From Candidatus Puniceispirillum sp. (lineage in GTDB: Bacteria; Pseudomonadota; Alphaproteobacteria; Puniceispirillales; Puniceispirillaceae), in the NCBI GenBank assembly GCA_016778895.1, contig JADHOR010000001.1, positions 124,001 to 188,000 of the forward strand: DNA of 64,000 nt, given 5' to 3'. Numbering within the stretch: position 1 is the stretch's first letter; every line of letters starts with the position of its first letter. The translations under genes and the position numbers were made by a program. Shown here piece by piece: positions 32,445-53,631 of the stretch. The notes beneath the pieces were generated by a model. It was not told where the DNA came from, did not search any database, and was given only the letters and a program-made list of their open reading frames with translations.

Positions 32445-33992
32445 TTAAAGCAAGACATTAAAACGAGCCCGCAAATCCTGATCAAGCGCATCTGGAATAT
32501 GCAGCGGATGTGGGCTTTCCAAAATTTCCTCTTTGCGCTTTCTTGCCGTATCCAGAAGATTGGGCTTGCCCAATTCTTCCCATTCTTTGGGGCTGGAACG
32601 ATCAGCAATCGCCGGATAGATGTATTCGGTCTGCATTAATTTAATCGTTTGGTCATGACCAAGATAATGGCCGGGGCCACCCATGCACACATCCTTCATC
32701 ACCTGTACGCCCAAGGTTGTTTCATTCACCTCGATGCCGCGCACACACCGCATACATTGACCGAGCATATCATTATCAATGATCAGGCTATCCAGACAAA
32801 ACCCCAGCAAAGAGGCGTGCATACCGGCGGCTTCATAAACCATATTCAATCCTGACAATCCCGCCATGACAAGGGTACTGCCCTTTTCATAGCCGGACTG
32901 CGCATCTGGCATTTTCGCATCAGCCATACCGGCGGCTGCACCACCCGGCAAATCATAATATTGCAGCATCTGCGCGCAGGCTGAAGTCAACAGCCCCTGC
33001 TCGCCCGATCCGCCCGACATCGCACCAGTACGCAAATCCGAAACAAACGGCCAAGTGCCACAAATACATGGATGACCCGGCTTCATCGCATTCACATAGA
33101 TAAGCCCGGCAACCACCTCGGCAAGCGCCTGTGCAACCGCGCCAGCGATACTGGCCGGTGCCGTGGCCCCTGCCTGCCCTGCAGATAATAGCAAAACCGG
33201 CATACCGTTTCGCACGGCTTCTTCCATCACCAAACAGGATTCGGTGGCAAATCGCAATGGCGGCACAACAAAGCAATTACTGTTAGACACAAACGGACGC
33301 GCGCGCCATTTATCCTCGCCACCAGCAACCATATGCAGCATTTCAAAAACCGGCTTCATATATTCAGCCTCGGTAAAGCTGACCCCAACATGTTTGGTCG
33401 TGCCCTTGATCGCCGCATAGACAGTATTGAAATCAAGGTCGGCCGGATCGGGGATATCGCGGGCCACCATCGGGCGCTGGAAAAAATGGATATTATCCAT
33501 CTGTTCGACGATACGCGCCGCATCATAAATATCGGCCAGATAGGATTCGCGATATTCATTCTTGACAACATCAACAACATGAACCGCGGCACCCGCCGTG
33601 CCATAATGCACGCGCGACCCTGATAGTAACAAATCATGCTTCGGATTTTGTCCATAAAGGGTGATGTGCCGACCACAAATCGCCAGCGTATGTTCAACCA
33701 GTGCACGGGGAAACCGGAGGCGGCCGTCATCACCCAAAACAGCCCCAGCTTCAGTCATATATTTAATGCCGGTATCAGGTGCCTGACTAAGGCCTATCTC
33801 TTCTAGAATTTGATAGACTGTTGCATCCACAGCCTTGACCGCGGCAGCATTGAGCGGTTTAAAATTACCGCCCTCAAGCCCTGCCCGTACTGGACGCAAA
33901 TCTTCGGCCAATGGTGCAGCGCGCAATGTGCGCCTAGCCTCACGACCACCACTACGGCGTGACGAATGAGGGATTGTTCTATTCTGGTTCAT
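32445..33992 (-). CDS. MttB-family (trimethylamine-methyltransferase-like) protein, non-pyrrolysine
   Basis: A corrinoid-dependent methyltransferase family member. Family segments are LEEIGLSQAPDTG near residue 65, a central TIM-barrel region and DMLGQCMRCVRGIEV late. The frame has no internal amber codon, so pyrrolysine is absent. Family knowledge: non-pyrrolysine members use quaternary amines such as glycine betaine. No corrinoid protein (MttC/MtgC) or reductive activator is seen in this window. GGGGAGA precedes the ATG. It is the last gene of the block with the two dimethylglycine-dehydrogenase-like genes, 29 bases downstream, which suggests a joint role in methylated-amine breakdown. Confidence 0.85.
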   Translation of the reverse strand: MNQNRTIPHSSRRSGGREARRTLRAAPLAEDLRPVRAGLEGGNFKPLNAAAVKAVDATVYQILEEIGLSQAPDTGIKYMTEAGAVLGDDGRLRFPRALVEHTLAICGRHITLYGQNPKHDLLLSGSRVHYGTAGAAVHVVDVVKNEYRESYLADIYDAARIVEQMDNIHFFQRPMVARDIPDPADLDFNTVYAAIKGTTKHVGVSFTEAEYMKPVFEMLHMVAGGEDKWRARPFVSNSNCFVVPPLRFATESCLVMEEAVRNGMPVLLLSAGQAGATAPASIAGAVAQALAEVVAGLIYVNAMKPGHPCICGTWPFVSDLRTGAMSGGSGEQGLLTSACAQMLQYYDLPGGAAAGMADAKMPDAQSGYEKGSTLVMAGLSGLNMVYEAAGMHASLLGFCLDSLIIDNDMLGQCMRCVRGIEVNETTLGVQVMKDVCMGGPGHYLGHDQTIKLMQTEYIYPAIADRSSPKEWEELGKPNLLDTARKRKEEILESPHPLHIPDALDQDLRARFNVLL

Positions 33993-34021
33993 GGATATTT
34001 CTCCCCACCAAGAGCCAATAA

Positions 34022-36493
34022 CTAGATTTTTACCTGTAGAGCCTTTGGATCATAAACTGGACGCAAACTCACTTCGGCGTCCACCAGCCTGCCAGCCACA
34101 TCAATCTGATAATACGAACTTAATTGCGATTCAGTACTCTCACCAACTTCATTGCATTTGACATAGCCAAGCCCGATTGCGGCACCAATATGATGGCCGT
34201 AATTACCGCTTGTCAGATACCCGATCAGCGCACCGTCTCGGTAAATCGATTCATTGTGATATAACAATGGCTCAGGGTCGGTCAGGCGAAACTGAACCAG
34301 CCGGCGTGACAGACCATCATTTCGTTTGGCCTTGACCGCATCAGCCCCAATCATCCCGCCGAATTTACCAACAGGCTTATTTTCCTTCACCACGAAACCG
34401 AGCCCAGCCTCAAGCACATGATCCTCGTTTGAGATATCATGACCAAAATGGCGAAACCCCTTTTCGATGCGGCAGCTATCAAGAGCATGAAGGCCGCACA
34501 TTGCGATGGCATGATCGTCTCGGCGTTCGGCAATCGCCTCAAACACATGCGCCGCCATATCGCTTGGCACATAAAGTTCCCAGCCAAGCTCTCCAACATA
34601 AGTAACACGATGCGCACGGGCAATTGCATGACCAATTTCAACCGTCTGCATAGTCCCAAACGGGAAATCTTCATTGGCAAGGCTTTGCGGAATCATTGGC
34701 TGAAGAAAATCTCGAGCCTTAGGCCCCATCACGACAAGCACTGCCTCTGACACGGTAACATCTACCGCGATGGCGTGCGCATTTTCGGGAATATGCCGGT
34801 TAATCCAATTCAGATCGCGGCGGATTGTGGCGGCTGGCGTAATGATGATAAACGCGTCCATGCTAAGGCGGGTAATCGTGACATCAGCCTCAATATGACC
34901 ATCTGAATTGAGGAACTGGGTATAGACGATCTTACCAACTGGAACGGCAACATCATTTGCCGCGATCATTTGCAGCACCGCTTCGGCATCACGGCCAATC
35001 AGCTTTATCTTACCAAAGCTGGACATATCGAACATGCCAACCTTTTGCCGCACTGCCATATGTTCAGCCGCGCTATAGTCAAACCAGTTCTGACGGCGCC
35101 AGCTATAGACATATTCGGCTTTTTTACCGGCATCACGTTCGGCTTGTGGCAAGAACCAGTTGGCACGCTCCCAGCCAGAAACCTCGCCAAAACAGGCACC
35201 TTCAGCCTCGAGGTAATGATGAACAGGTGAGCGCCGCACGCCACGTGCCGATGCAAATTGACGATAAGGGAAATGGTCTGCATAGAGCAGGCCTAGCGTT
35301 TCCGTCACACGCGCCTTTAGATAACTGCGATTGGCCTGAAACGGTTGCATTCGCCGGATATCAACATCCCACAGATCAAACGGCTGTTTGCCGCTATCCA
35401 TCCATTCAGCAAGTGCCATACCGGCACCACCCGCCGAGGCGATCCCGACCGAATTAAATCCGGCCGCCACATAAAAATGATCAAGCTCAGGTGCCTCGCC
35501 AAGGATATAGCGATCATCGGGGGTAAAGCTCTCCGGCCCGTTAAAGAAGGTCTGGATTCCCGCCGTTGCCAGCATTGGGAAACGCTCGACCGCGCGCTCA
35601 AGAATTGGTTCAAAATGATCAAAATCTTCGGGCAGAGAGTCAAATTCGAAATCTTCGGGGATGCCATCCATCCCCCAGGGTTTTGCCACCGGCTCAAATG
35701 CGCCCAGCAGCATCTTGCCAGCGTCCTCTTTAAAGTAACAACATTCATCTGGCACCCGCAACACTGGCAGATTTGGTGTAATATCAGGCATAGGCTCGGT
35801 TACGATATAAAAATGCTCACAGGCATGAAGCGGAACCGAAACGCCAGCCATAGCGCCAATTTCACGGCCCCACATGCCGCCAGCATTGACCACATATTCA
35901 GCCTCAATCGGCCCAAAGTCAGTATCAACACCGCTCACCCGGCCATTTGCCTGATGAATGGCTGTGACCTTGACACCTTGCAGGATCGACACGCCAAAAT
36001 TACGCGCACCCTTGGCCAGCGCTTGGGTGATATTAACCGGATCTGCCTGTCCGTCCTTTGGCAACCACACCCCGCCAACCGCATCCTTTGTTGCAAGCCC
36101 CGGATAGCGGTTTGTGATATCGCTGGGGCCAATCTCGTCGATCTCGACCCCAAATGCCCGCGCCATGGCTGCCAGACGGCGCAATTCCTCCATCCGCTCG
36201 TCATTCAGCGCCATGGTGATCGATCCGTTGCGCTTAAAACCGGTTGCGACACCCGTTTCCGCCTCAAGGCCGAAATAGAGTTCTTGTGAATATTTCGCCA
36301 GCCGCGTCATATTCTGGGTGTTGCGTAACTGTGCGACCAAGCCTGCCGCGTGCCATGTGGTACCACAAGTCAGCTGTTTGCGTTCGAGCAGAACAACATC
36401 CTTCCAGCCCAGTTTCCCGAGATGATAGGCAATCGAACAGCCAATAACACCGCCACCGATGATAACCGCACGCGCTTTTGACGGAATCTGCAT
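34022..36493 (-). CDS. Dimethylglycine/sarcosine dehydrogenase-like flavoprotein (DAO-GcvT)
   Basis: A two-domain protein. The N-terminal FAD-binding oxidoreductase domain has IIGGGVIGCSIAYHLG and TTWHAAG, where H48 is the position that carries covalent FAD in mammalian dimethylglycine dehydrogenase. The C-terminal half (from about residue 430) is GcvT-like and would bind folate to capture the released one-carbon unit; YVGELGWELYVP and GLHALDSCRIEKGF are its markers. Length (823 aa) fits the family. It starts 3 bases after the stop of a paralogue and precedes the MttB-family gene. The exact substrate is not determined. Confidence 0.88.
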   Translation of the reverse strand: MQIPSKARAVIIGGGVIGCSIAYHLGKLGWKDVVLLERKQLTCGTTWHAAGLVAQLRNTQNMTRLAKYSQELYFGLEAETGVATGFKRNGSITMALNDERMEELRRLAAMARAFGVEIDEIGPSDITNRYPGLATKDAVGGVWLPKDGQADPVNITQALAKGARNFGVSILQGVKVTAIHQANGRVSGVDTDFGPIEAEYVVNAGGMWGREIGAMAGVSVPLHACEHFYIVTEPMPDITPNLPVLRVPDECCYFKEDAGKMLLGAFEPVAKPWGMDGIPEDFEFDSLPEDFDHFEPILERAVERFPMLATAGIQTFFNGPESFTPDDRYILGEAPELDHFYVAAGFNSVGIASAGGAGMALAEWMDSGKQPFDLWDVDIRRMQPFQANRSYLKARVTETLGLLYADHFPYRQFASARGVRRSPVHHYLEAEGACFGEVSGWERANWFLPQAERDAGKKAEYVYSWRRQNWFDYSAAEHMAVRQKVGMFDMSSFGKIKLIGRDAEAVLQMIAANDVAVPVGKIVYTQFLNSDGHIEADVTITRLSMDAFIIITPAATIRRDLNWINRHIPENAHAIAVDVTVSEAVLVVMGPKARDFLQPMIPQSLANEDFPFGTMQTVEIGHAIARAHRVTYVGELGWELYVPSDMAAHVFEAIAERRDDHAIAMCGLHALDSCRIEKGFRHFGHDISNEDHVLEAGLGFVVKENKPVGKFGGMIGADAVKAKRNDGLSRRLVQFRLTDPEPLLYHNESIYRDGALIGYLTSGNYGHHIGAAIGLGYVKCNEVGESTESQLSSYYQIDVAGRLVDAEVSLRPVYDPKALQVKI

Positions 36494-36496
36494 CTA

Positions 36497-38992
36497 TCAG
36501 CCCTTCATCTTTATATTTTCTGGATCATATAAAACATGGCCATCGACCAGTACGGCGCGGCGCGATCGCCCAAGAACCAGAACTGAAATATCCTTTGCCG
36601 CCCGCAACGCACCACAATCGACAACCGCCATCGCAATCGATGCGCCAACCCGATGCCCGTATCCACCTGACAAAACCAATCCGGCAACATTTCCATCAAT
36701 CACAACGCTGCTAAGATAGACAGCGTCGCCAAACGGCTCGCCATCATCCGGATCATCTAGCACGAGGGTCACAAACTCATTTTTGCTACCCGCCTGCTGT
36801 TCAGCTTGCAGGGCAGTCCGGCCAACAAAATCGTCTTTGTTGAAATTCACCCAGCGCCCAAGCCCGGTTTCCAGCATCGTATAATCTGACGTCAAATCCG
36901 ATTTCCATGAACGATAGCCTTTTTCAAGGCGCATCGAGTCCAATGCCAACATTCCAAATGGGGCGAGTTCATAAGCCGCACCCGCGGCAGTAATCGCATC
37001 ATAAACAGCGACGATATTATCCATCTTGCAATGGATTTCAAATCCGGCTTCACCGGCAAATGACACGCGAATGGCGGTTACCTCATCGCCAGCCATTTCA
37101 ATCTTACGGCACTCTAACCAGGCAAAATCATCATTTACCATTGAGTGGCCGGTCAGATCAGCAAGAATTGCCGGTGCCTTAGGCCCGGTCACCAGCAAGG
37201 TTGCCAGATCATACGTCACATCGGTGATTTGCACCGAGCCGTCCGAGGGCAGGGTCGCCATCAACAAATCACGGTCATGCCAATAGGCACCCGCGCCACT
37301 CATCAACAGAAAATCATTTTCGGCACAGCGCGTGACGGTCATCTCGCTTAGCATCTTGCCTTTTGGTGACGCAAAATAGACTAGCCCTATGCGGCCAACA
37401 CGCGGCAGATTACCAGTAATCTGACGGGTCAGCCACGCGTCAGCACCAGCGCCACTCGCATGAAACCGCGAAAATCCTGTAAGCTCCAGAATCCCGGCAT
37501 GGGCTGCGACGTGGCGGCATTCCTGCCCGACGGCATCAAACCAGTGCTGGCGGTCATAGCTATCGGCCGGCCGCCGGTCGGCATCATCCGACGGAAACCA
37601 GTCAGCGCGTTCCCATCCCCCATAACTGCCAAATTCAGCACCCGCTGCCGCCAGCCGGTCATAAAGCGGCGAAGATTTTGCCTTGCGGCCAGCCGGCCAC
37701 TGAATCTGCGGGAAATGCATCGCATATTCATGGCTATAGGTCTCGATCGCCTTGGCCGCTGTATAAGCCTTATCGACATGGTCGGTAAAGCGGCGCGGAT
37801 CAACAGCCCAGCTATCGCTGTCGGCCTCGCCTTCAATGATAATCTCGGCCAGCAGCTTGCCAGCACCACCAGCCTGAACAATCCCAAAGGTAAAGACACA
37901 CGCCTCAAACGCGTTCGGCACACCGGGCATCGGCCCAATCAACGGCAGACCATCGGGCGTATAGGGGATTGGCCCGTTCACCACCCGCGTAATGCCAGCG
38001 GTACCAAGAATTGGCACCCGCGCACACGCATCCTCAATATACCATTCCAGCCGTTCCAGATCGTCGTTATAGAGCTGGAAAGAAAAATCATCTGGCATCG
38101 GATCACTGGCATCCAGCCAATGCGCACGGCAGTTTTTCTCATAAGGGCCAAGCAGCAACCCGTCCTTTTCCTGCCGCAGATAATATGAGCTGTCAGGATC
38201 ACGAAGCAGCGGCAATTTTTTATCCCGCGCCGTCAATTCGGCAATCGGCTCAGTGATCAGATATTGATGCGCCAGCGAAACACACGGCACATCACGCCCA
38301 AACATCTTGCCAAGTTCACCTGCCCGATACCCGGCCGCATTCACGACATATTCGGCTCTGATCTCACCGTTTGGGGTGGTGATTTTCCATTCATCGTTAA
38401 TACGCTTAACCCCGGTCACCGGACAAAATCGGATAATCTTTGCGCCCATATCGCGCGCGCCCTTGGCCAATGCTTGGGTCAATTGCGCCGGATCAATATC
38501 GCCATCTAATGGATCCCACTGGCCGCCATAAAGATCATGGGTTTCAAGAAACGGATAGATCGCCTGCATATCGGCATTCGCCATTTCTTCAAATTCGACC
38601 CCCATATGGCGGCCCATTGCCTGTACATGACGAAATTCTTCCATGCGTTGGCGGCTATGCGCTAATCGAATGGCTCCGGTGACATGATAATTCATCGGAT
38701 AGTCGACCAGATCCCCCAGCTTGCGATAGAGCGCGGTTGAATAGGATTGGATCTTCATCATTGTCCATGACCCGACATAATTCGGGCAATTGCCCGCGGC
38801 GTGCCACGTCGAGCCTGATGTCAGCTCATTCTTTTCCAGCAAAACGCAATCTGACCAGCCCATTTCCGCCAGATGGTAAAGCACCGAGCACCCAACAGCC
38901 CCGCCGCCAATCACCACCACACGCGCAGTTGCGGGAAGATTGGCCGATGCCTGTAATTCGGTCTCTTTTGAAGTCACAGTTGCTTGCGTCAT
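36497..38992 (-). CDS. Dimethylglycine/sarcosine dehydrogenase-like flavoprotein, second copy
   Basis: A paralogue of the next gene with the same layout. The FAD domain has VVIGGGAVGCSVLYHLAEMG and STWHAAG (H64 as candidate FAD attachment site), then LPLIGPMPGVP. The GcvT-like half has SFAGEAGFEIHC and GMLALDSMRLEKGYRSW. Both paralogues share the junction element GWERA(D/N)WF but have diverged strongly, so different substrates or steps (for example dimethylglycine versus sarcosine) are plausible. It lies downstream of an XRE-cupin regulator and an 18-base direct repeat. Confidence 0.88.
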   Translation of the reverse strand: MTQATVTSKETELQASANLPATARVVVIGGGAVGCSVLYHLAEMGWSDCVLLEKNELTSGSTWHAAGNCPNYVGSWTMMKIQSYSTALYRKLGDLVDYPMNYHVTGAIRLAHSRQRMEEFRHVQAMGRHMGVEFEEMANADMQAIYPFLETHDLYGGQWDPLDGDIDPAQLTQALAKGARDMGAKIIRFCPVTGVKRINDEWKITTPNGEIRAEYVVNAAGYRAGELGKMFGRDVPCVSLAHQYLITEPIAELTARDKKLPLLRDPDSSYYLRQEKDGLLLGPYEKNCRAHWLDASDPMPDDFSFQLYNDDLERLEWYIEDACARVPILGTAGITRVVNGPIPYTPDGLPLIGPMPGVPNAFEACVFTFGIVQAGGAGKLLAEIIIEGEADSDSWAVDPRRFTDHVDKAYTAAKAIETYSHEYAMHFPQIQWPAGRKAKSSPLYDRLAAAGAEFGSYGGWERADWFPSDDADRRPADSYDRQHWFDAVGQECRHVAAHAGILELTGFSRFHASGAGADAWLTRQITGNLPRVGRIGLVYFASPKGKMLSEMTVTRCAENDFLLMSGAGAYWHDRDLLMATLPSDGSVQITDVTYDLATLLVTGPKAPAILADLTGHSMVNDDFAWLECRKIEMAGDEVTAIRVSFAGEAGFEIHCKMDNIVAVYDAITAAGAAYELAPFGMLALDSMRLEKGYRSWKSDLTSDYTMLETGLGRWVNFNKDDFVGRTALQAEQQAGSKNEFVTLVLDDPDDGEPFGDAVYLSSVVIDGNVAGLVLSGGYGHRVGASIAMAVVDCGALRAAKDISVLVLGRSRRAVLVDGHVLYDPENIKMKG

Positions 38993-39022
38993 GTTCTAAT
39001 CTCCGCGTCCAGATCGCTTATT

Positions 39023-39058
39023 TTACTTTCCCGTCAGGTCTTACTTTCCCGTCAGGTT
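39023..39058. repeat. Two tandem 18-base repeats upstream of the flavoprotein operon
   Basis: TTACTTTCCCGTCAGGTC is followed directly by a copy differing only at the last base. It lies between the regulator gene and the first flavoprotein gene, 30-65 bases upstream of that start. It could be an operator or a simple duplication. Confidence 0.85.
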
Positions 39059-39160
39059 CTTCTTTGTGCCCGATGTCTTATTCGTCCGGTTTCAGTAACC
39101 TGATTTTTCGGGTCTCGTCTTAATGCCGTCTTTGCCGTTCTCTTTTGGATGGGTCACACA

Positions 39161-39769
39161 TTAATAAACCGGCGGTGCAATCACCCATATCAAAACCGCG
39201 TTAGTCTTGCCCTCGTTGATCCAAGTGATCTCTTCGCCGGCAAACCGAAACGAGTCACCCGGATTAAGCTCAAACCGGACGCCATCGATAAACAGCACAA
39301 GGCTGCCCTCAATCACATAGCCAGCTTCTTCGGTTGGGCGGATAAATGGCTCAGGGCAGCTTGCCCCCGGTGCAAAGACCGAATGCACAATCTCAAAAGC
39401 GCCGCCAAGATCCGGCGATAGCAAACTTTCGGCCAAGCCCTTTGATGCGTCACTCATAACCCGCCTTGACCCGGCGCGCACAATATAGGCTGTCTCGTCA
39501 CCATGGCCGCCATCGGTAAAGAAGAAACTAACCGGCAGCGAGAATAGACTGGCAACTTTGCGAATATCATCAAGCGTCGGCTCAGAAACATTACGCTCAA
39601 CCTGTGATAGCCAGCCAACCGACCGGTCAAGCTGTTCCGCAAGATCGGTTAACGTCCAATTGCGCGACCGGCGCAACGCACGAATATCACTGCCAATCTT
39701 GCCGCTTGACCTTAAGGGGGCTTTTGACCCAGTGCCTGCTTTGGCATCTTGTTTTAAATCAATTAGCAT
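39161..39769 (-). CDS. XRE-cupin transcriptional regulator
   Basis: An N-terminal helix-turn-helix domain (SDIRALRRSRNWTLTDLAEQ, then VGWLSQVERNVSEPTL) is joined to a C-terminal cupin sensor domain (EEAGYVIEGSLVLFIDG, LNPGDSFRF). Such proteins often control amine and betaine catabolic genes lying next to them, which fits the two flavoprotein genes and MttB downstream. The ATG at 39769 has GGGGGA five bases upstream; a longer frame to 39886 is less likely. The ligand is unknown. Confidence 0.9.
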   Translation of the reverse strand: MLIDLKQDAKAGTGSKAPLRSSGKIGSDIRALRRSRNWTLTDLAEQLDRSVGWLSQVERNVSEPTLDDIRKVASLFSLPVSFFFTDGGHGDETAYIVRAGSRRVMSDASKGLAESLLSPDLGGAFEIVHSVFAPGASCPEPFIRPTEEAGYVIEGSLVLFIDGVRFELNPGDSFRFAGEEITWINEGKTNAVLIWVIAPPVY

Positions 39770-39973
39770 CGATCCCCCGCGCCTGATGATTTCATCCTGA
39801 ACCGAAGTAAATGAAAATTTCAATGTTTTTTTCACTGCTGTATAATTTTCATGGTTTTTTTTCATCAGGGCACGCAGAAACCTCACGAAAGGTCACGCGA
39901 TTGACGGAGAATATAATCGGGGTATTTGACGGTTAGGATTGATGAGCGATCGGCGGTATCGCCTTATCTGCAC

Positions 39974-44919: not shown

Positions 44920-46593
44920 CTAATGCTGACCCTTTTCAACATCACGCGTCATTGCGGCAAGCGCCTCGGCCGTATCGACGTCTTGGAAAATAGCTGGATC
45001 ATCACAATTTACCAGATTTTGGGCGGCCAGATGATCATCCAGCAATTGCCGACCACCGCTATCTCCAGTTAGAGCCGATAATTCGGGGAAAAATGCCCGT
45101 CCCCACAATACCGGATTACCGCGCTTGCCAGCCTTCGTCGGCAAGGTGATGCAGCGCTGATGATCATCGAGTTGCAGATGGTTTTGCACCAGCAATTCAA
45201 GCACCTCTGGCGATACCAATGGCATATCACCAAGCGCGATCACGACATCGGTTACATCTGCATCAAGCACGCCAACGCCGACCCCAACCGAGGCTGCCTG
45301 ACCGCGGGCATGATCAGGATTAAACACAAGGGTCACCGGCAAGCCTTTGAGCGCGGCCGCGACCTTGTCTGCCTCATGGCCAATTACAATAATTAACGGC
45401 GATAGCGCAGCCGCAACCATCGCTTCGGCGGCGTGCCTGATAAGCGGCTTTCCAGCAATCGGCGCCAGTAATTTATTGACCGACCCCATGCGCCGCGACT
45501 GACCTGCAGCCAGAAGAATACCAGCCATTTTATCTTCGCTCGGCGGGATTGTCGCAAGTGCGCGCGGCATCGGCCGTGAGGCAATTTCCATCAACAAACC
45601 ACCCGCCGCCATCTCGGCAAGCTCATGGCGACTAAGTGGTATATCCGCCAGCACCAATTGCAGAACCCAATCCAGCCCGTTGAGTTTCGGCGAGCGCGCA
45701 CAGCCTGGCATTCCAATCACATGATGATGACCCTGCCCGGCGACGTTCTCGGCAAATCTGGTAGGTTTGGCAATTTTGGCAACCATCAACAGATTACCCG
45801 GATCAACCGCAAGGCCAAATTGATCGATCTGCCCGCCTGCAAGAATGACTGCCTGCGGCACCTCATCCTGACGGTCAATTATTGCCGATCCGCCGCAGAT
45901 CAGAATCATCTCGACACCGGCCGCCACCATAATGCTGATTTCGGCCGCAACGACCTCGCGGTCATGCGCACAAATACTGCACTCTACAAGATCACAGCCA
46001 AGCTGGTTGAGGCGTGTCCGTGTAACAGTTTCCGTGGCCTTAAACAGCCGATCTTTCTGTCCCGGAAGCCGCGTTTGGATCAGCCCAACACTAGCCTCGC
46101 GCAAGCCGTAAAAGGCAAAGGCTTTTCGTTCAAAAAGCAGGTTTTCAATCGCCAAAATTGACGCCTCGGCGACAAAAAACGGGATAATTTTCAAGGTTGC
46201 TGCCATCTGACCAGATTCAAGAAACTGATTATGCTGCACCAGCGCAAAGGTGATCGCCTCATCAACCTCGTTCAGCTGACGGATAAGGTCGCGGTCATAG
46301 CGGATGATGCCGCGTTGTTGCGTGCGGATATTAACCCGTCCTGTCGCAGCGCGGGTAAAATCAACCGCGCTCGGCGACAAGGCCTTGGCCAGCCGTTCAG
46401 CCGCAACATCCTCATGTACATCATCCAGATCAGGCTTTGCGCAGACAAGCGATGAGATGCCCTCGGCACGCAGCCGTTCAAGCATCGCCCTATCCAGTAA
46501 TGTTCCCTTTGATAGAGTGCCGTGAGAGCTGGTGTGTCGATGCGCTAATAAAAGCCCCTCACAATCATCAAGCGGGAATCTTGCCAGCTTCAT
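44920..46593 (-). CDS. Fusion of MoeA-like and MocA-like (molybdopterin cytidylyltransferase) domains
   Basis: Residues 1 to about 345 form a molybdopterin-binding domain related to MoeA/MogA (ILICGGSAIIDRQDEVP, VIGMPGCARSPKLN). From residue 356 follows a MobA-like NTP transferase with LLAAGQSRRMGSVNKLL, VIALGDMPLV and GKRGNPVLW. Together they should insert molybdenum and attach CMP to form molybdenum cytosine dinucleotide, the cofactor of the CoxL-type hydroxylase encoded divergently. Its ATG shares a base with the xdhC stop (TAATG). It is the last gene of the coxD-coxE-xdhC series. Confidence 0.88.
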   Translation of the reverse strand: MKLARFPLDDCEGLLLAHRHTSSHGTLSKGTLLDRAMLERLRAEGISSLVCAKPDLDDVHEDVAAERLAKALSPSAVDFTRAATGRVNIRTQQRGIIRYDRDLIRQLNEVDEAITFALVQHNQFLESGQMAATLKIIPFFVAEASILAIENLLFERKAFAFYGLREASVGLIQTRLPGQKDRLFKATETVTRTRLNQLGCDLVECSICAHDREVVAAEISIMVAAGVEMILICGGSAIIDRQDEVPQAVILAGGQIDQFGLAVDPGNLLMVAKIAKPTRFAENVAGQGHHHVIGMPGCARSPKLNGLDWVLQLVLADIPLSRHELAEMAAGGLLMEIASRPMPRALATIPPSEDKMAGILLAAGQSRRMGSVNKLLAPIAGKPLIRHAAEAMVAAALSPLIIVIGHEADKVAAALKGLPVTLVFNPDHARGQAASVGVGVGVLDADVTDVVIALGDMPLVSPEVLELLVQNHLQLDDHQRCITLPTKAGKRGNPVLWGRAFFPELSALTGDSGGRQLLDDHLAAQNLVNCDDPAIFQDVDTAEALAAMTRDVEKGQH

Positions 46594-47582
46594 TACACCG
46601 GCTTCCCACGAAAGGCTGCCACCAGTTCAGCCAGAACCGAAATAGCAATTTCGGCTGGTGTCTTGGCACCAATATCCAAACCGGCCGGCCCTTTAATTCG
46701 CCCAATATCAGCATCACTAAAACCGGCATCGCCAAGCCGTTGCAGCCGTGCCGCATGGGTTCGTTTACTGCCAAGGCAGGCAATGTGAAATAATGGTTTG
46801 CCGAGCACCATATGCAACGCCGCATCATCAATCTTGGGGTCATGCGTCAATGCAACGAGCGCGGTTTCCTGATCAAGCCCGATCTCACCAAGAACACGGT
46901 CCGGCCAATCAAACACAACATCAATGCCCGGAAATCTGTCAGCTGTGGCAAATGTCCGCCTCGGATCGATCACTGTCACGACAAAACCGGCCTGCGATGC
47001 CATAGAGGCCAGATGCTGGCTGATATGAACCGCGCCGACAATGATAATGTGCGGGCGCGGTGTCTGCACAAACCAGAATTCATCATCGATCAATTCGCTT
47101 TTTGGCGGCAATGATTTAGCGCGCCGTGCACCACCACCGGAAACCGAAAGACAAAACCCAACCGGCACACGTTGTGCCAGAGATTTTGCCGCATCGTCGA
47201 GCAAAGCCGGGGCAAATCCGGTTTTTGAAACCGCCATAACAAGAATGGAAATCTGTCCACCGCATGAAAGGCCAACCTCCCACGCAGTCGAATCGGCAAC
47301 GCCAAAATCCAGCCGCTGGCTGCCGCCGGCTTCAATCATCTCCAGCGCGGCGTCAATAACCGCCCCTTCAACACAACCACCTGACACCGAACCGGCGACC
47401 TGTCCGTCACCACGCACCAGCATCAGACTGCCAACCTGACGCGGCGATGATCCCCAAGTCTGGATCACAAACGCCAACGCAAGCTTATGGCCCGTATTCT
47501 GCCAGCGTGACGCCTGAAGCAACAACTCATCATCGGCAAGCATCAAACGACGATCAAGATGTTCACTGGGCTGATCAGTCAT
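46593..47582 (-). CDS. xdhC: XdhC/CoxI family molybdenum hydroxylase maturation protein
   Basis: XdhC-type chaperones bind the molybdenum cofactor and help its sulfuration and insertion into hydroxylases. The N-terminal domain has WGSSPRQVGSLMLV, SGGCVEGAVI and GLSCGGQI. The C-terminal NAD-like domain begins at PHIIIVGAVHISQHLA and contains VIDPRRTFA and LTHDPKIDD. It overlaps coxE by 4 bases and the mocA fusion by 1 base, so the maturation genes are translationally coupled. Confidence 0.92.
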   Translation of the reverse strand: MTDQPSEHLDRRLMLADDELLLQASRWQNTGHKLALAFVIQTWGSSPRQVGSLMLVRGDGQVAGSVSGGCVEGAVIDAALEMIEAGGSQRLDFGVADSTAWEVGLSCGGQISILVMAVSKTGFAPALLDDAAKSLAQRVPVGFCLSVSGGGARRAKSLPPKSELIDDEFWFVQTPRPHIIIVGAVHISQHLASMASQAGFVVTVIDPRRTFATADRFPGIDVVFDWPDRVLGEIGLDQETALVALTHDPKIDDAALHMVLGKPLFHIACLGSKRTHAARLQRLGDAGFSDADIGRIKGPAGLDIGAKTPAEIAISVLAELVAAFRGKPV

Positions 47583-48880
47583 CGCGAAAAAGACCCTTTT
47601 TCCTGGGTGTAAGACAGCACCGTCCGATCAGTAAATCCGGCACGGCGCGCCGCATCTTGCCATTCGCTCAGTCTGACGTCACGCTGATTCTGGATCGTTG
47701 CGAGACTTGCAGTCAAATCACTCATCGCCTGCAAAGAATGGATTGGCAGAAAATGGTCAACATGCTGGATCATCATCTTCACCGAATGTGCCTTCGGCGC
47801 AAACCCATCAAACCGCAATAGCGGGTTCAGCCAAACCAGTGCCGACGTTGATTTATGCAGCCTTGCCATATGGGTGCCAAACCCGGGGTCTGTGGTGCGA
47901 TCAAGCCCGTCTGTAATCAGCAGGGTTATTGCCCCCTGCCCCATGACGCGGCGCGACCATTCCTGATTAAACTGTTTGAGGCAACTGCTGATACGGGTAC
48001 CACCTGACCAATCTTCAACAAGATGCGATACCGCTTGCACTGCCTCATCAACGTCACGGTTTTGCATTTGCCGGCTGATATTTGTCAGGCGCGTGCCGAA
48101 CAGAAAACTCGAAACCGCCGGATGACTGCGGGTCAGCGCATGGATAAAATGCAGCATGATGCGGCTATATTGTTCCATCGAGCCAGAAATATCACACAAG
48201 ATGACCAGCGGCCGCGGCTTGGTTACGATTGTCTGAAATTGTGGAAAGACGATGCCGAATTGTTTAACCCCACGCTGTAGGGCAACACGCATGGCAATCT
48301 GCTGGCCGCGGGGTGATAATTTTGACCGACGCGCCAGGCGCCGGGGCAGACAGGGCCGCAGGCTGGCAATTGCCTGTTCGGCAAGCCGCATTTCCGCAGC
48401 TGACATCATTTCAAAATCCTTATGTTTAAGCCGGTCACGGTCGGTGGAGGTCCCTGCGGCATCCAGCTCAATTTTGACATCGTCATTGGCGCTTAGCTGG
48501 ACCTTGGGTGGTACGGCTACCGCGTCCGACAAGCGGCGGAGCATCGCCTCGGCATCATCATGCTCGTCAACAGATGATTTAATCTTTGGCAACAAAAGAT
48601 CACGGATACGTTCGTGAAATTTTGGGTTTTGCCAAAACATATAAAAGGCCTGATCAAAAAGCGGCTTATCCTCGCGCCGTTTGATCAGACAGCTTGCTAG
48701 GGCGTGATACAAAAATTTCTTCTTTGCAACACCAACCGTTTCTGCCGCATCGACTGCGTCCAGCATATCCGCCGATCCCAGCTTCATACCACTGGTCCGA
48801 AGCAGCCGCACAAACAGCATGATATTCTGATCGAGTTTTGGCGTGACCATTTTCGGCGGCGGTTTCAGCGACCTGGTCAT
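47579..48880 (-). CDS. coxE: CoxE-type von Willebrand factor A domain protein
   Basis: CoxE works with the AAA+ protein CoxD in maturing the CO-dehydrogenase-type active site. The N-terminal half is charged and helical. The VWA domain holds a metal-ion-dependent adhesion motif CDISGSMEQYSR at about residue 230, followed by RISSCLKQFNQEW and LLITDGLDRTTD. It overlaps coxD and xdhC by 4 bases on either side. Confidence 0.92.
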   Translation of the reverse strand: MTRSLKPPPKMVTPKLDQNIMLFVRLLRTSGMKLGSADMLDAVDAAETVGVAKKKFLYHALASCLIKRREDKPLFDQAFYMFWQNPKFHERIRDLLLPKIKSSVDEHDDAEAMLRRLSDAVAVPPKVQLSANDDVKIELDAAGTSTDRDRLKHKDFEMMSAAEMRLAEQAIASLRPCLPRRLARRSKLSPRGQQIAMRVALQRGVKQFGIVFPQFQTIVTKPRPLVILCDISGSMEQYSRIMLHFIHALTRSHPAVSSFLFGTRLTNISRQMQNRDVDEAVQAVSHLVEDWSGGTRISSCLKQFNQEWSRRVMGQGAITLLITDGLDRTTDPGFGTHMARLHKSTSALVWLNPLLRFDGFAPKAHSVKMMIQHVDHFLPIHSLQAMSDLTASLATIQNQRDVRLSEWQDAARRAGFTDRTVLSYTQEKGSFSR

Positions 48881-49824
48881 AACCGTGACAGCTCGCCCTG
48901 AACCATAGCGCGTTGCACTTCAGATAAGATACGCGCCGCTTCAGTTCCCTGAATACGGCTGATATCATCCTGATATTTCAACAGCACGCCCATCGTCGAA
49001 TCAACGGTTTGGGGATCGAGCGCAACACAGTTCAATTCCACCAGCGCCTGCGCCCAGTCAATGGTTTCGGCAACACCTGGTGATTTGAATAATTGCTGGC
49101 CGCGAAGTGCCTGCACAAAATCTACCACCTGTGCCTGCAGCATGGCGCCTGCATCGGGCGCCTTCTTGGCGAGAATCTGCAATTCAACTTCACGGCTTGG
49201 GTAATCAACCCAATGATAAAAACAGCGCCGTTTTAACGCATCGTGGATCTCGCGCGTGCGGTTTGATGTGATAATCACAATCGGCGGCGTTGACGCGGTG
49301 ATTGTTCCCAGCTCAGGGATAGTGATCTGCCAGTCCGAGAGCAGTTCAAGCAAATAGGCTTCAAATGCTTCATCGGCGCGGTCAATTTCATCAATCAGCA
49401 ATATAGGCGCGCCAGCCGGATTTGCCCTCAACGCCCGCAACAACGGACGTTCGACTAAAAATGCCTCCCGAAACAGATTATCGGCACCGCTGTTAATCGT
49501 ATCTGCCGGGTTATCTACATGCTTGTAATCGACGCTTCTTTGGGACTGAATTTCAATTAACTGCCGCGCATAATTCCATTCATAGGCAGCCTGGTTAATA
49601 TCAAGCCCTCCATAACATTGAAGCCGGATCAAATCGCGCCCAAGAACCCTCGCAAGGACTTTGGCAATTTCGGTTTTGCCAACACCCGCCTCGCCCTCAA
49701 GAAAAAATGCGCGTTGCTTTGCCAAGGCCAGAAACAGGCTAACAGCCAAACCGTCATTGACAATATAGCTTGCAGAAACAAGCCCTTGCTGAACGGCCTC
49801 GACTGTGTCAAACGCCCGCGCCAT
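48877..49824 (-). CDS. coxD: CoxD-type MoxR AAA+ ATPase
   Basis: A MoxR-family AAA+ chaperone. Walker A is EGEAGVGKT (residues 43-51), Walker B is ILLIDEIDRAD, and sensor 1 is IVIITSNRTRE. In Oligotropha carboxidovorans CoxD is needed to build the copper-sulfur site of CO dehydrogenase. Its role with a form II enzyme is an inference. The ATG at 49824 was preferred over a TTG at 49833. It is the first gene of the reverse operon and is divergent from coxS. Confidence 0.92.
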   Translation of the reverse strand: MARAFDTVEAVQQGLVSASYIVNDGLAVSLFLALAKQRAFFLEGEAGVGKTEIAKVLARVLGRDLIRLQCYGGLDINQAAYEWNYARQLIEIQSQRSVDYKHVDNPADTINSGADNLFREAFLVERPLLRALRANPAGAPILLIDEIDRADEAFEAYLLELLSDWQITIPELGTITASTPPIVIITSNRTREIHDALKRRCFYHWVDYPSREVELQILAKKAPDAGAMLQAQVVDFVQALRGQQLFKSPGVAETIDWAQALVELNCVALDPQTVDSTMGVLLKYQDDISRIQGTEAARILSEVQRAMVQGELSRL

Positions 49825-49927
49825 CACCGCCAATCCCCTTGCCCTGTTTCAATGCTACCATTTCTATGTTTACAAATACCGCGGATCCATACAACCTTTT
49901 CCTCTTGTGAATGATTTCTGCCAAACG

Positions 49928-49951
49928 ATTTCATTCATAAAAAAATGAAAT
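49928..49951. promoter_or_regulatory. Palindrome in the divergent cox intergenic region
   Basis: ATTTCATT and AATGAAAT form perfect 8-base inverted arms around an 8-base AT-rich spacer. It lies 22 bases upstream of coxS, between the two divergent cox operons, so it could be an operator for both or a leader hairpin of coxS. AAGGAGAG follows as the coxS ribosome-binding site. Confidence 0.55.
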
Positions 49952-49972
49952 TATCAGCCAAAGGAGAGATCA

Positions 49973-50440
49973 ATGCCAACCGTAGCAATGAAGGTGAACG
50001 GGGCGAATGTAGTTCATGATATCCCGGATAATACGTTGCTGGTTTCATTTTTGCGCGAAACCATGGGGCTAACCGGAACACATGTTGGGTGCGACACTAG
50101 CCAGTGCGGCGCCTGTATTGTCCATGTGAATGGCGAGTCGATCAAATCATGCAGCATTTTAGCAGCGCAGCTTGACGGCGCCGACGTCACGACGATTGAG
50201 GGTATCGCCAATGGTGATGAGCTGCATCCGATGCAGCAGGCGTTTCATGAGAATCATGGTCTGCAATGCGGGTTTTGCACACCGGGGATGGTGATGAGCG
50301 CGATTGAGCTTGTAGAGAAAAACAAGAACCTGTCCGAGCGTGAAATCCGTGAAGGATTAGAGGGAAATATCTGCCGCTGCACCGGCTATCACAACATTGT
50401 CAAGTCAGTACAGGACGCAGCTACAAGAATGGGAGGGTAA
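49973..50440 (+). CDS. coxS: CO-dehydrogenase-type small subunit (2Fe-2S)
   Basis: The iron-sulfur subunit of a molybdenum hydroxylase. The plant-ferredoxin-type cluster ligands are C40, C45, C48 and C60 ([12 protein letters not shown]), and the helical-domain cluster ligands are C99, C102, C134 and C136 ([20 protein letters not shown]). It transfers electrons from the molybdenum centre to the FAD subunit. Length (155 aa) is standard. It is first in the S-L-M order, typical of form II clusters. AAGGAGAG precedes the start. Confidence 0.96.
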
Positions 50441-50441
50441 A

Positions 50442-52826
50442 ATGCCAGAGGGTATCGCAAGCCAAGGTATTGGCGCATCCGTTCGCCGCAAGGAAGACCG
50501 AAGGTTTTTAATTGGAAAAGGGAAATACACGGACGATATTAATCGGGCAGGTCAGCTTCACGTTTACTTCCTCCGCTCGCCTGTTGCTTTTGCCGATATT
50601 GTGTCCATTGACAAGGAGAGGGCAGAAAAAGCTTCTGGAGTCATAGCAATTTTGACTGGTGAAGATGTAGCAGCCGACAATCTAGGCGGCCCTATTTGTG
50701 GATGGGCGCCGACAAACAAGGACGGTTCAGCCCCTTCCGAGCCTCCACACCCCATCCTTGCCAATGGCAGGGTGCGGTATGTCGGAGACCACGTTGCAGC
50801 GGTGTTTGCCGAAACGCTGGAAGAAGCCACCTCTGCTGCTGAGCTGATCGATGTGGTTTATTCGGAAATGCCAGCGATAACAGATTTAAAAACTGCAATG
50901 GATCAACCTCAGATCCATGACGGTATGGAACAAAATACCTATTTCGATTGGGAACTTGGCAACGAGGCTGCCGTCAATGATGCATTTGACAGGGCTGAAA
51001 CAATTGTAAACGTCCATATTCGCAACAATAGGGTTATACCAAACGCTATGGAGCCTCGCGCTGCCGTGGCTGAATACGACAAGGGCGATGCACGTTATAC
51101 ACTTTTCACCACATCACAAAACCCCCAGCTGACCCGCCTAGTAATTGGTGCGTTCATGCTGAACATTCCCGAGTCAAAACTTCGTGTTGTGGCTCCAGAT
51201 GTTGGCGGGGGATTTGGATCAAAAATTTATGTATATCCTGAAGAGGCCGTTTGTGTGTGGGCTTCAAAAAAACTTGGGCGTGCGATTAAGTGGACGGCTG
51301 ACAGAACACAAGCCTTCCTTGGGGACGCGCATGGCCGCGACCACATAAGTGAAGTAAAGCTTGCACTCGACAAAAACAAAAAGATAATTGGGCTCAGGGT
51401 CGATACATTGGCAAATCTGGGAGCTTATCTGTCCGCGTTTGCAATGGTTACACCAACCTATCTTCATGGAACGCTGCTTTCTGGTGTTTATGACATTCCG
51501 GCCATCTACACAAACGTCAAAGGCATCTGCACCAACACAGTTAATGTTGACGCCTATAGAGGTGCCGGTAGACCTGAAGCAACCTACCTTCTTGAACGGA
51601 CAATGGACGTAGCCGCAAAGCAGGTCGGAATGGATCCTGCAGAATTTCGGCGTTTAAACTTCATTCCAAAAGATGCATTTCCATATCAAACAGCGTTAGC
51701 TCTTCAGTATGATGTTGGCGATTATGAGCCATTGCTAGATCGTGCTATGGCGATGATAGATTACAAAAATTTTGAGAGCCGGCGTGCAAAGTCCGCAAAA
51801 GACGGAAAATGCAGGGGCATCGGAATTAGCACATACATTGAAGCATGCGGCATTGCGCCATCAGCTGTGGTTGGCGCACTTGGCGGACGCGTTGGTCTAT
51901 ATGAAAGCGCTATTGTCCGAGTAGAGCCAACAGGCACAATTTCAGTGCTTACCGGCACTCACAGTCATGGTCAGGGTCACGACACCACATTTGCGCAACT
52001 CGTCTGTGACAAGCTAGGCGTGGATATAGAGGCAGTCGAAATTGTCCATGGCGACTCCGATCGCACAGCGTTTGGCATGGGTACATACGGCTCCAGATCA
52101 CTCGCCGTCGGTGGCACCGCCATATCGAAAGCATTAGATAAAGTCATTGCGAAGGGCAAAATAATAGCTGCCCACATGCTTGAGGCCGATGATGCCGACA
52201 TAGAGTTCAAAGACGGTAAATTCACCGTTGCCGGCACCGACAGGGAAAAGTCCTTTGGCGAGATTGCTCTATCTGCCTATGTGCCGCACAATTTCCCTCA
52301 TGATCGGCTAGAACCGGGGCTGGAAGAAACCGCGTTTTATGATCCAGCAAACTTCACCTATCCGGCCGGCACACATATTGCCGAGGTAGAAATTGATCCT
52401 TCAACCGGCGTAGTGGAATTGGTTGATTGGGTGTGTTGTGACGACTTTGGAAATTTAATTAACCCAATGGTCGTCGAAGGGCAGGTTCATGGAGGCATTG
52501 CGCAAGGTGTAGGCCAGGCATTATATGAAGAAGCAGCTTATGATGATAATGGACAATTACTATCAGCGTCCTATATGGACTATTGTATGCCGCGGGCTGA
52601 CAACTTTCCAAGTCTCAAGGTTCAAAACTTGGTGACTGCCTGCACTCACAATGATTTGGGCGTAAAAGGATGCGGCGAAGCGGGGGCAATTGCCTCACCA
52701 CCTGCATTGATCAATGCAGTTGTTAACGCGTTATCGCCGCTTGGTGTCACTGATATAACGATGCCGGCGACGCCGGAAAAAGTTTGGCGGGCCATCCAAG
52801 ACGCCCAGACCAAAGCAGCCGAATAG
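50442..52826 (+). CDS. coxL: Form II CO-dehydrogenase-type large subunit (molybdenum hydroxylase)
   Basis: The catalytic molybdenum-binding subunit. It shows GIGASVRRKEDRRFLIGKGKY at the start, VVAPDVGGGFGSKI and the active-site loop AYRGAGR (residues 371-377). Form I CO dehydrogenases have AYxCSFR there, with a copper-binding cysteine; AYRGAGR marks form II, whose ability to oxidise CO is doubtful in several marine bacteria (family knowledge). The substrate is thus open. Codon choice is unlike the flanking genes: many Arg codons are AGA/AGG. The start has GGGAGGG upstream, one base after the coxS stop. Confidence 0.94.
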   Translation: MPEGIASQGIGASVRRKEDRRFLIGKGKYTDDINRAGQLHVYFLRSPVAFADIVSIDKERAEKASGVIAILTGEDVAADNLGGPICGWAPTNKDGSAPSEPPHPILANGRVRYVGDHVAAVFAETLEEATSAAELIDVVYSEMPAITDLKTAMDQPQIHDGMEQNTYFDWELGNEAAVNDAFDRAETIVNVHIRNNRVIPNAMEPRAAVAEYDKGDARYTLFTTSQNPQLTRLVIGAFMLNIPESKLRVVAPDVGGGFGSKIYVYPEEAVCVWASKKLGRAIKWTADRTQAFLGDAHGRDHISEVKLALDKNKKIIGLRVDTLANLGAYLSAFAMVTPTYLHGTLLSGVYDIPAIYTNVKGICTNTVNVDAYRGAGRPEATYLLERTMDVAAKQVGMDPAEFRRLNFIPKDAFPYQTALALQYDVGDYEPLLDRAMAMIDYKNFESRRAKSAKDGKCRGIGISTYIEACGIAPSAVVGALGGRVGLYESAIVRVEPTGTISVLTGTHSHGQGHDTTFAQLVCDKLGVDIEAVEIVHGDSDRTAFGMGTYGSRSLAVGGTAISKALDKVIAKGKIIAAHMLEADDADIEFKDGKFTVAGTDREKSFGEIALSAYVPHNFPHDRLEPGLEETAFYDPANFTYPAGTHIAEVEIDPSTGVVELVDWVCCDDFGNLINPMVVEGQVHGGIAQGVGQALYEEAAYDDNGQLLSASYMDYCMPRADNFPSLKVQNLVTACTHNDLGVKGCGEAGAIASPPALINAVVNALSPLGVTDITMPATPEKVWRAIQDAQTKAAE

Positions 52827-52836
52827 GGGAACGAAA

Positions 52837-53631
52837 ATGTATTCAACAAAATATGTCAAAGCGCGTGATATTGACGATGCGGTGAAAGCCCTGAAATCAG
52901 CCGATGATGGCAAGTTTCTGGCTGGTGGCATGACCTTGATACCCACTTTGAAGCAGCGGCTGGCCAATCCTGATTGTCTGGTTGATCTGTCTGCTTGCGG
53001 TCTATCCTCAATAGATGATGAGGGCAGTGCGATCCGGATTGGGGCGATGACGCGTCATGTTGATGTTGCGGAATCTGCGCTGGTGCAAAAGGCCATTCCA
53101 GCTCTCACGCATCTGGCCGCACATATCGGCGACCGGCAGGTCCGCAATCGCGGCACGATAGGTGGCTCGCTGGCGAATAATGATCCGGCGGCTTGTTATC
53201 CGGCGGCGCTATTGGCGCTTGGGGGTACGGTTCATACGCAAAGCCGGTCAATTGCGGCTGAGGATTATTTTGACGGTATGTTTGAGACCGCATTGGAGGA
53301 AGATGAGATCATTCACGCTGTTAGTTTGCCGAAACCTGAAAAGGCCGCCTATGTCAAATTTCCAAACCCTGCGTCGCGTTATGCAATGGTTGGGGTGTTC
53401 GTGGCAAAATTTGCCGATGGTGTGCGTGTTGCCGTTACCGGTGCGGGTGAGGATGGCGTGTTCCGGGCGCATGATCTAGAAGCGGCGCTTAATGCAAATT
53501 TCAGTGCTGATGCGATTGCTGATGGGATGGTCTCGTCTGATGGGCTGATGAGTGATATTCATGCCTCGGCGGATTATCGGGCGCATCTTATTGGCGAGAT
53601 GACCCGCCGCGCCGTTAATGCCTGCACCTGA
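52837..53631 (+). CDS. coxM: CO-dehydrogenase-type FAD-binding medium subunit
   Basis: The flavoprotein subunit that passes electrons from the iron-sulfur clusters to an acceptor. FAD-binding motifs AGGMTLIPTLK (near residue 29) and TIGGSLANNDPAACYPA are present, as in the CoxM/CutM family. The C-terminal CO_deh_flav_C region is present but somewhat short (264 aa in total). AGGGGA lies upstream of the ATG. It ends the coxSLM operon and is followed by a clear terminator. Confidence 0.94.
   Translation: MYSTKYVKARDIDDAVKALKSADDGKFLAGGMTLIPTLKQRLANPDCLVDLSACGLSSIDDEGSAIRIGAMTRHVDVAESALVQKAIPALTHLAAHIGDRQVRNRGTIGGSLANNDPAACYPAALLALGGTVHTQSRSIAAEDYFDGMFETALEEDEIIHAVSLPKPEKAAYVKFPNPASRYAMVGVFVAKFADGVRVAVTGAGEDGVFRAHDLEAALNANFSADAIADGMVSSDGLMSDIHASADYRAHLIGEMTRRAVNACT

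Follow-up and report, generated by a model that had tools for sequence, protein, structure and literature searches.

A candidate second corrinoid-dependent quaternary-amine demethylation module, with two paired flavoproteins, in SAR116

The closest described counterpart of the locus reported here is a corrinoid route of aerobic marine bacteria. The part of PMC12478193 on which we draw describes aerobic glycine-betaine demethylation through MtgC, MtgD and PF06253 proteins, on the evidence of proteomics and of mtgC and mtgD mutants; in Ruegeria pomeroyi, MtgC and MtgD function in methionine synthesis as well as in glycine-betaine demethylation, and two PF06253 proteins, RamA, DUF1638 and MetF2 increased on N-osmolytes. 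By the same account, SAR116 has mtgC homologues and a single genome may carry as many as seven PF06253 genes, the extra ones being suggested to act on other methylated compounds, which it does not name. The residues proposed by docking for glycine betaine in MtgB are Y94, N199, R309 and H345 (PMC6855144, used in part). In a literature search judged by title or abstract start, no paper assigned a substrate to another such PF06253 paralogue in an aerobe.

We analyzed a window of 64,000 nucleotides (contig C11, positions 124001–188000) from a 2.17 Mb, 61-contig host genome that is 99.6% complete. Four intact minus-strand frames occupy positions 32445–39769. The first in the direction of transcription encodes a 202-residue XRE-cupin protein with HTH_3 and Cupin_2 domains (39161–39769), proposed to control the block. 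After 168 bases it is followed by two DMGDH-like FAD/folate flavoproteins separated by 3 bases, DHB (36497–38992; 831 aa) and DHA (34022–36493; 823 aa), proposed to carry out the second and the last N-demethylation, respectively. After a further 29 bases comes W (32445–33992; 515 aa), an MttB-superfamily gene without pyrrolysine, proposed to encode a quaternary-amine:corrinoid methyltransferase. An earlier note on this DNA had described the same four same-strand genes with gaps of 3 and 29 bases, and our recomputed gaps agree. We used the ATG at 39769 as the start of the XRE-cupin gene, the open frame of which extends to a GTG at 39886; its product scores 41.8 bits against the PuuR model, under the cut-off of 211. 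An XRE-cupin gene precedes DHB in 12 of 20 SAR116 loci, and also in Neomegalonema and Hoeflea loci (gene calls at fetched loci are mechanical, with starts as predicted and some unnamed genes spurious). Elsewhere in the window, positions 44920–53631 contain a cluster for a molybdenum hydroxylase that resembles aerobic CO dehydrogenase, with large, FAD-binding and iron-sulfur subunits and CoxE-like, XdhC/CoxI, AAA and MobA-like genes. Its large subunit scores 625.5 bits, under the CO-dehydrogenase cut-off of 991.15, and contains AYRGAGR, which we take to be a form II-type motif.

W matches PF06253 (Pfam) at 371.8 bits (cut-off 25) over positions 1–490 of 500, which places it in the superfamily, and scores 353.5 bits against the pyrrolysine-MttB equivalog, below the cut-off of 525. 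It contains no in-frame stop; Met356 aligns with Pyl334 of MttB, and this column holds Met in 47, Ile in 11 and Ala in one of the 59 W rows of our alignment. Gly134 and Tyr386, the equivalents of Gly110 and Tyr364 of pyrrolysine MttB, are invariant in all 59 rows, as is Glu387 next to Tyr386, and Thr111 of pyrrolysine MttB is replaced by Ala in W. The four docking-proposed MtgB residues (the chain numbering is offset by one relative to the residue numbers of PMC6855144, as given in the part used) align with G134, F241, G351 and E387 of W. Across the W rows, N199 is replaced by Phe (58) or His (1), R309 by Gly (56) or Ala (3) and H345 by Glu (59). Asn, Arg and His are kept in all three MtgB-type rows, the Y94 column of which reads T, A and Y. 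The replacement of the proposed carboxylate-holding His by Glu argues against glycine betaine as the substrate of W, and the substrate of the block is probably, as judged from these residues, another quaternary amine.

W shares 26% identity with the MtgB-type protein of the genome and 40% with a further paralogue on contig C25. Among 136 genomes of the order, the lowest W match is at 65% identity (one fragment is at 62%), and no other match exceeds 46%. In a 79-row tree, which has some long branches, all 59 W rows group together (95/76), and the three MtgB-type rows are separate (100/100); a 54% match with an in-frame stop, from one of 12 control loci (L139), is counted as W in this tree. On sequence grounds, W is a paralogue group distinct from MtgB.

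The host genome has four places with PF06253 matches. The MtgB-type gene, at C11:41.9 kb, scores 738 bits against 4yyc and 398 against 2qne, and at C11:38–46 kb it adjoins a DMGDH-like gene, a SoxG-domain gene and one read by eye as sarcosine-oxidase alpha. We rejected W and the C25 paralogue as the genome's MtgB-type protein; W reaches only 180 bits, against both 2qne and 9yce, and the C25 protein 165. As the earlier note had stated, the window contains no corrinoid protein or activase: the only PF02607 (B12-binding_2) and PF14574 (RACo) proteins in the genome are encoded outside it, at C11:71.9 kb and C11:66.4 kb. They belong to a hub at C11:66.3–72.2 kb, on the same contig and about 84 kb from the block, that reads RACo activase, Pterin_bind, MTHFR-like, PF13769, DUF1638 and B12 protein. 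The Pterin_bind protein scores 371.2 bits against the methyl-THF:corrinoid/iron-sulfur protein methyltransferase model, over the cut-off of 259. The B12 protein contains DIHDIG and is nearest to the MtgC models, yet falls under both cut-offs (211.8 versus 370 and 175.3 versus 310). The genome thus holds a corrinoid acceptor and an activase, with an MtgD-type protein adjoining them, and the hub matches the MtgBCD hub of aerobic marine bacteria published in 2025 (PMC12478193, in the part used). The genome-wide search for MttC/MtgC and RamA homologues that the earlier note had proposed therefore finds both a corrinoid protein and an activase; that they also pair with W, the other half of what that note had named as refuting its reading, we infer. 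The same publication, as far as the part used describes it, largely overtakes the note's view of an undescribed route. Because the corrinoid route of aerobic marine bacteria is published, the module is of an ordinary general kind, and we regard the W block as a widespread variant of it.

Several further MttB genes came to light. In the host genome, a third paralogue (C25, 653–6902) lies with a peptidase S51, an FMN hydroxyacid dehydrogenase-like protein and a TPP enzyme, a set that recurs in two other genomes (G083 and G078). A fourth (C56, 2–4300), cut by the contig end, is divergent to cobU- and cobT-type genes and a CobS-like gene that is below its cut-offs, a cobalamin assembly set. In genome G124 (C1, 7061–10604), an MttB gene nearest to the host's MtgB-type protein (51%) lies 55 bases from an xsc frame on the same strand. 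Two Ruegeria plasmids (L094, 13929–23249; L107, 11040–20349) carry a LysR-linked cassette with an MttB protein 47–48% identical to W, a HemL-like aminotransferase, two DMGDH-like flavoproteins and a TPP enzyme that is Xsc-like and, in R. pomeroyi, under the Xsc cut-off; this appears to be another uncharacterized module.

DHA and DHB each contain DAO, FAO_M, GCV_T and GCV_T_C domains over their Pfam cut-offs, the arrangement of dimethylglycine and sarcosine dehydrogenases, and are 35% identical to each other. For both, the closest solved structure is a dimethylglycine dehydrogenase: 4pab for DHA (454.8 bits) and the mitochondrial enzyme 5l46 for DHB (562.6 bits), presumably from rat and human, respectively. 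The motif TWHAAG, which we take to carry the FAD-linking His, starts at position 46 of DHA and position 62 of DHB. Relatives of the DHB–DHA pair on Rhizobium, Agrobacterium and Paracoccus plasmids adjoin genes for electron-transfer flavoprotein (ETF) subunits, FolD and PurU, and three of four such loci also contain an ETF-ubiquinone oxidoreductase gene. This set would pass electrons to quinone and convert methylene-tetrahydrofolate (methylene-THF) to formate. The neighboring ETF genes suggest that the flavoproteins are dehydrogenases rather than oxygen-using oxidases, which makes the oxygen-using demethylation of the earlier note doubtful; by analogy with the plasmid relatives, we infer that this may extend to SAR116. 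On two Rhizobium-group plasmids, a Rieske oxygenase takes the place of W after DHB–DHA. The Neorhizobium protein scores 257 bits against GbcA (cut-off 670) and 218.7 against 4qup, deposited as a demethylase; on the other plasmid, the DHB match is in two pieces without an annotated gene. This replacement suggests that the first demethylation, before DHB–DHA, is done by differing enzymes, as a three-step model predicts. Two irregular DHA-like genes were also seen: in Sinorhizobium meliloti Ak57 (L093, 11418–13749), DHA is present as two overlapping, unannotated frames where Sinorhizobium sp. K101 has one long frame, and the host genome contains a further DHA-like gene (C10, 3964–6357; 44% identity) with an in-frame TAA.

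We found W in 53 of the 136 genomes of the order searched, a carrier being defined by a best match of at least 60% identity (partial matches in G070, G075 and G121 included), and in scattered Rhizobiales and Roseobacteraceae. Relatives at 84–99% identity are from SAR116, from Candidatus Puniceispirillum, or from Alphaproteobacteria or Proteobacteria without a finer name. Outside the order, 36 genomes had a W match of at least 52%, and 28 of these loci were fetched. Among the 29 W genomes of the order that are at least 90% complete, 29 encode MtgC, 28 RACo and 29 both DHA and DHB. Across all 53, RACo is present in 47, MtgC in 47, either in 50, DHA in 51 and DHB in 52 (the carrier lists behind the hub, flavoprotein and Xsc counts were compiled by hand, and because co-occurrence was counted among related genomes, the Fisher value overstates independence). 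Conversely, nine genomes at least 90% complete have the hub without W, which fits the W block as an optional add-on.

W and the flavoproteins share loci more often than expected by chance. In the 20 SAR116 loci and 28 wider alphaproteobacterial loci, all chosen for having W, both DHA and DHB lie with W in 17 of the former; in the latter, DHB is found in 17 and DHA in 11, with at least one flavoprotein in 17. Among six named W loci outside SAR116, four contain DHB and two DHA. The view that the genes of this methylated-amine block belong together, also taken in the earlier note, is thus borne out by the co-location of W with at least one flavoprotein in 17 of 20 and 17 of 28 loci. The order is DHB–DHA–W in SAR116 and Sinorhizobium and W–DHB–DHA in other families. 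An ABC binding protein encoded directly upstream of the lone W in SAR116 genome G067 shares 45% identity with a binding protein encoded upstream of DHB–DHA in Paracoccus seriniphilus. In six genomes of the order, DHA and DHB are present but W is not; DHA is at a contig end in two of these (G120 and G132), and in G088 (99% complete) and G081, the order is XRE–DHB–DHA, with neither W nor a replacement between DHA and the next gene.

On balance, and judging from sequence, we favor reading the block as a second SAR116 module for corrinoid-dependent demethylation of quaternary amines, parallel to the glycine-betaine one, which removes three methyls stepwise from a substrate that is probably not glycine betaine. 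In this scheme, W would transfer a single methyl group of a trimethylammonium compound onto the MtgC-type corrinoid protein, from which the MtgD-type protein would pass it to tetrahydrofolate, and the MTHFR-like protein would oxidize methyl-THF to methylene-THF; the RACo/RamA-type protein would re-reduce inactive cobalamin. The remaining tertiary amine would be demethylated twice, by DHB and DHA, to a primary amine through FAD oxidation, with THF taking up the methyl carbon to form methylene-THF and electrons probably going to ETF. The XRE-cupin protein would regulate the operon. The order of the steps is our proposal. The block singles out one widespread PF06253 paralogue group, tied to two flavoproteins and a regulator; the residue evidence narrows the substrate question, the substrate of W can be sought directly by experiment, and the module could prove to be a further B12-dependent route by which a marine osmolyte is consumed.

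We weighed three other readings against this one. The block might be a redundant second glycine-betaine route, with W acting on glycine betaine, DHB on dimethylglycine and DHA on sarcosine. The closeness of both flavoproteins to dimethylglycine dehydrogenase among solved structures is consistent with this, as are two Rhizobium-group loci in which DHB–DHA is accompanied by a Rieske oxygenase related to GbcA and by carnitine 3-dehydrogenase, an enzyme on the way to glycine betaine, and an Agrobacterium plasmid on which ABC transporter genes for glycine betaine and a short gene with an MttB-family annotation lie close to DHA. However, the genome already has its MtgB-type gene beside DMGDH-like and sarcosine-oxidase-like genes at C11:38–46 kb, and W, at 26% identity to MtgB, has Gly or Ala at 351 and Glu at 387 where MtgB has Arg309 and His345; we think a redundant route unlikely. 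If anything slightly less likely is that W and the flavoproteins share only a regulator, W acting on one compound and DHB/DHA on dimethylglycine, sarcosine or another tertiary amine. DHB–DHA loci with no W in the fetched stretch do exist, and neither flavoprotein lies within the fetched stretch around W in 3 of 20 SAR116 and 11 of 28 wider loci. Yet the three SAR116 genomes in which W stands alone (G064, G067 and G095) keep DHB–DHA 12–14 kb away on the same contig, and both flavoproteins are present in every W genome of the order that is at least 90% complete.

The earlier note had instead proposed that the MttB protein works with an unusual, non-corrinoid methyl acceptor. The window's lack of a corrinoid gene fits this idea, and 3 of the 53 W genomes (G004, G077 and G090) show neither MtgC nor RACo, but these are 88%, 65% and 72% complete, and MtgC is found in all 29 of the W genomes that are at least 90% complete. 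Because the same genome has the corrinoid hub, on the block's own contig at a distance of about 84 kb, we reject this reading as very improbable. A corrinoid-dependent module for a quaternary amine other than glycine betaine is the reading we retain.

Neighboring genes point several ways as to the substrate, with carnitine genes, an AptA-type aminotransferase and, in a few lineages, taurine-type genes. One reading, formed after the fact, is methylated-taurine demethylation: N,N,N-trimethyltaurine (taurobetaine) would lose its first methyl to W and the second and third to DHB and DHA, and an AptA-like transaminase, Xsc and a Pta-like protein would then process the taurine formed. In keeping with such a substrate, the residues proposed to bind the carboxylate in MtgB are absent from W. 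In Hoeflea poritis, xsc (972.5 bits, over the cut-off of 676.4) and a MocR-type regulator gene lie between W and DHA. In SAR116 genome G067, xsc (930.8 bits, also over the cut-off) and a pta-like gene (242.1 bits, under the cut-off of 282) adjoin the DHA side, and xsc is likewise beside DHA in G066 and G094. Pta-like and xsc genes thus adjoin DHA at three loci in two SAR116 genera, with an AptA-like gene at two and DHA alone at one. The last is G066, whose fetched stretch contains DHA and lacks DHB; a last-step role for DHA would predict this, although the genome is only 76% complete. Next to W in SAR116 genome G124 are aptA, a pta-like gene and a MocR-type gene. In P. seriniphilus, DHB–DHA is flanked by xsc and by the gene for a binding protein of taurine-ABC-like type (165.8 bits, under the cut-off of 304), and an AptA-type omega-aminotransferase gene adjoins DHA in Rhizobium, two Agrobacterium and NGR234 loci. 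Xsc is found in 26 of the 29 W genomes versus two of the nine hub-only genomes (all at least 90% complete), six of those nine being from one genus.

A TauR identity of the MocR-type regulators beside W or DHA is doubtful: that of G124 passes the PdxR cut-off (352.7 versus 320). The 28 wider W loci contained no xsc, pta, MocR-type or aptA matches, and the 12 control loci no taurine-type matches. The host genome's own xsc is on a different contig from the block. Judged by title or abstract start, open-licence PMC papers named no genes for the catabolism of taurobetaine, N-methyltaurine or related compounds. Because the wider and control loci are without taurine-type matches and the G124 regulator passes PdxR, we keep methylated taurine low and consider it distinctly doubtful, below the redundant-route and shared-regulator readings. 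Other candidate hints were set aside because they are not conserved between lineages: genes for sulfatase and acyl-CoA dehydrogenase following W (some SAR116 loci only), LysE exporters (L045 and L086 only), an ABC transporter run (type read by eye) with an MtgB-type gene downstream of W (L111), molybdopterin-oxidoreductase genes (SAR116 f4), a TsoY-family gene after DHB–DHA (Rhodobacteraceae SC52) and a glutamine-synthetase-like and amine-oxidase-like run after DHB–DHA (G107).

Among known systems, Eubacterium has, to our knowledge, no flavoprotein demethylases in its MttB modules. Its MttB paralogues for other quaternary amines, such as MtyB for γ-butyrobetaine (PMC8604678, in part; further ones through PMC12478193), resemble the present genome in combining several non-pyrrolysine paralogues with one corrinoid protein and, unlike the host of W, are anaerobic. 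W is of the same family as pyrrolysine MttB and keeps the Gly110 and Tyr364 positions, but its group has Met, Ile or Ala at Pyl334, and W has Ala for Thr111 (PMC9842639, in part). DHA and DHB resemble mitochondrial dimethylglycine dehydrogenase (5l46 and 4pab) over their whole length, in the folate domain and in TWHAAG; unlike it, they are two bacterial tandem paralogues. The nearest system is MtgB–MtgC–MtgD with its split methionine synthase, likewise from aerobic marine bacteria including SAR116, which, by the part of PMC12478193 used, shares with the host genome a PF06253 donor enzyme, an MtgC-type protein, an MtgD-type pterin methyltransferase, a RamA-type activase, DUF1638 and a MetF2-like protein. 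The W block differs from it in that W forms a separate group without the proposed glycine-betaine residues and comes with two dedicated DMGDH-like flavoproteins.
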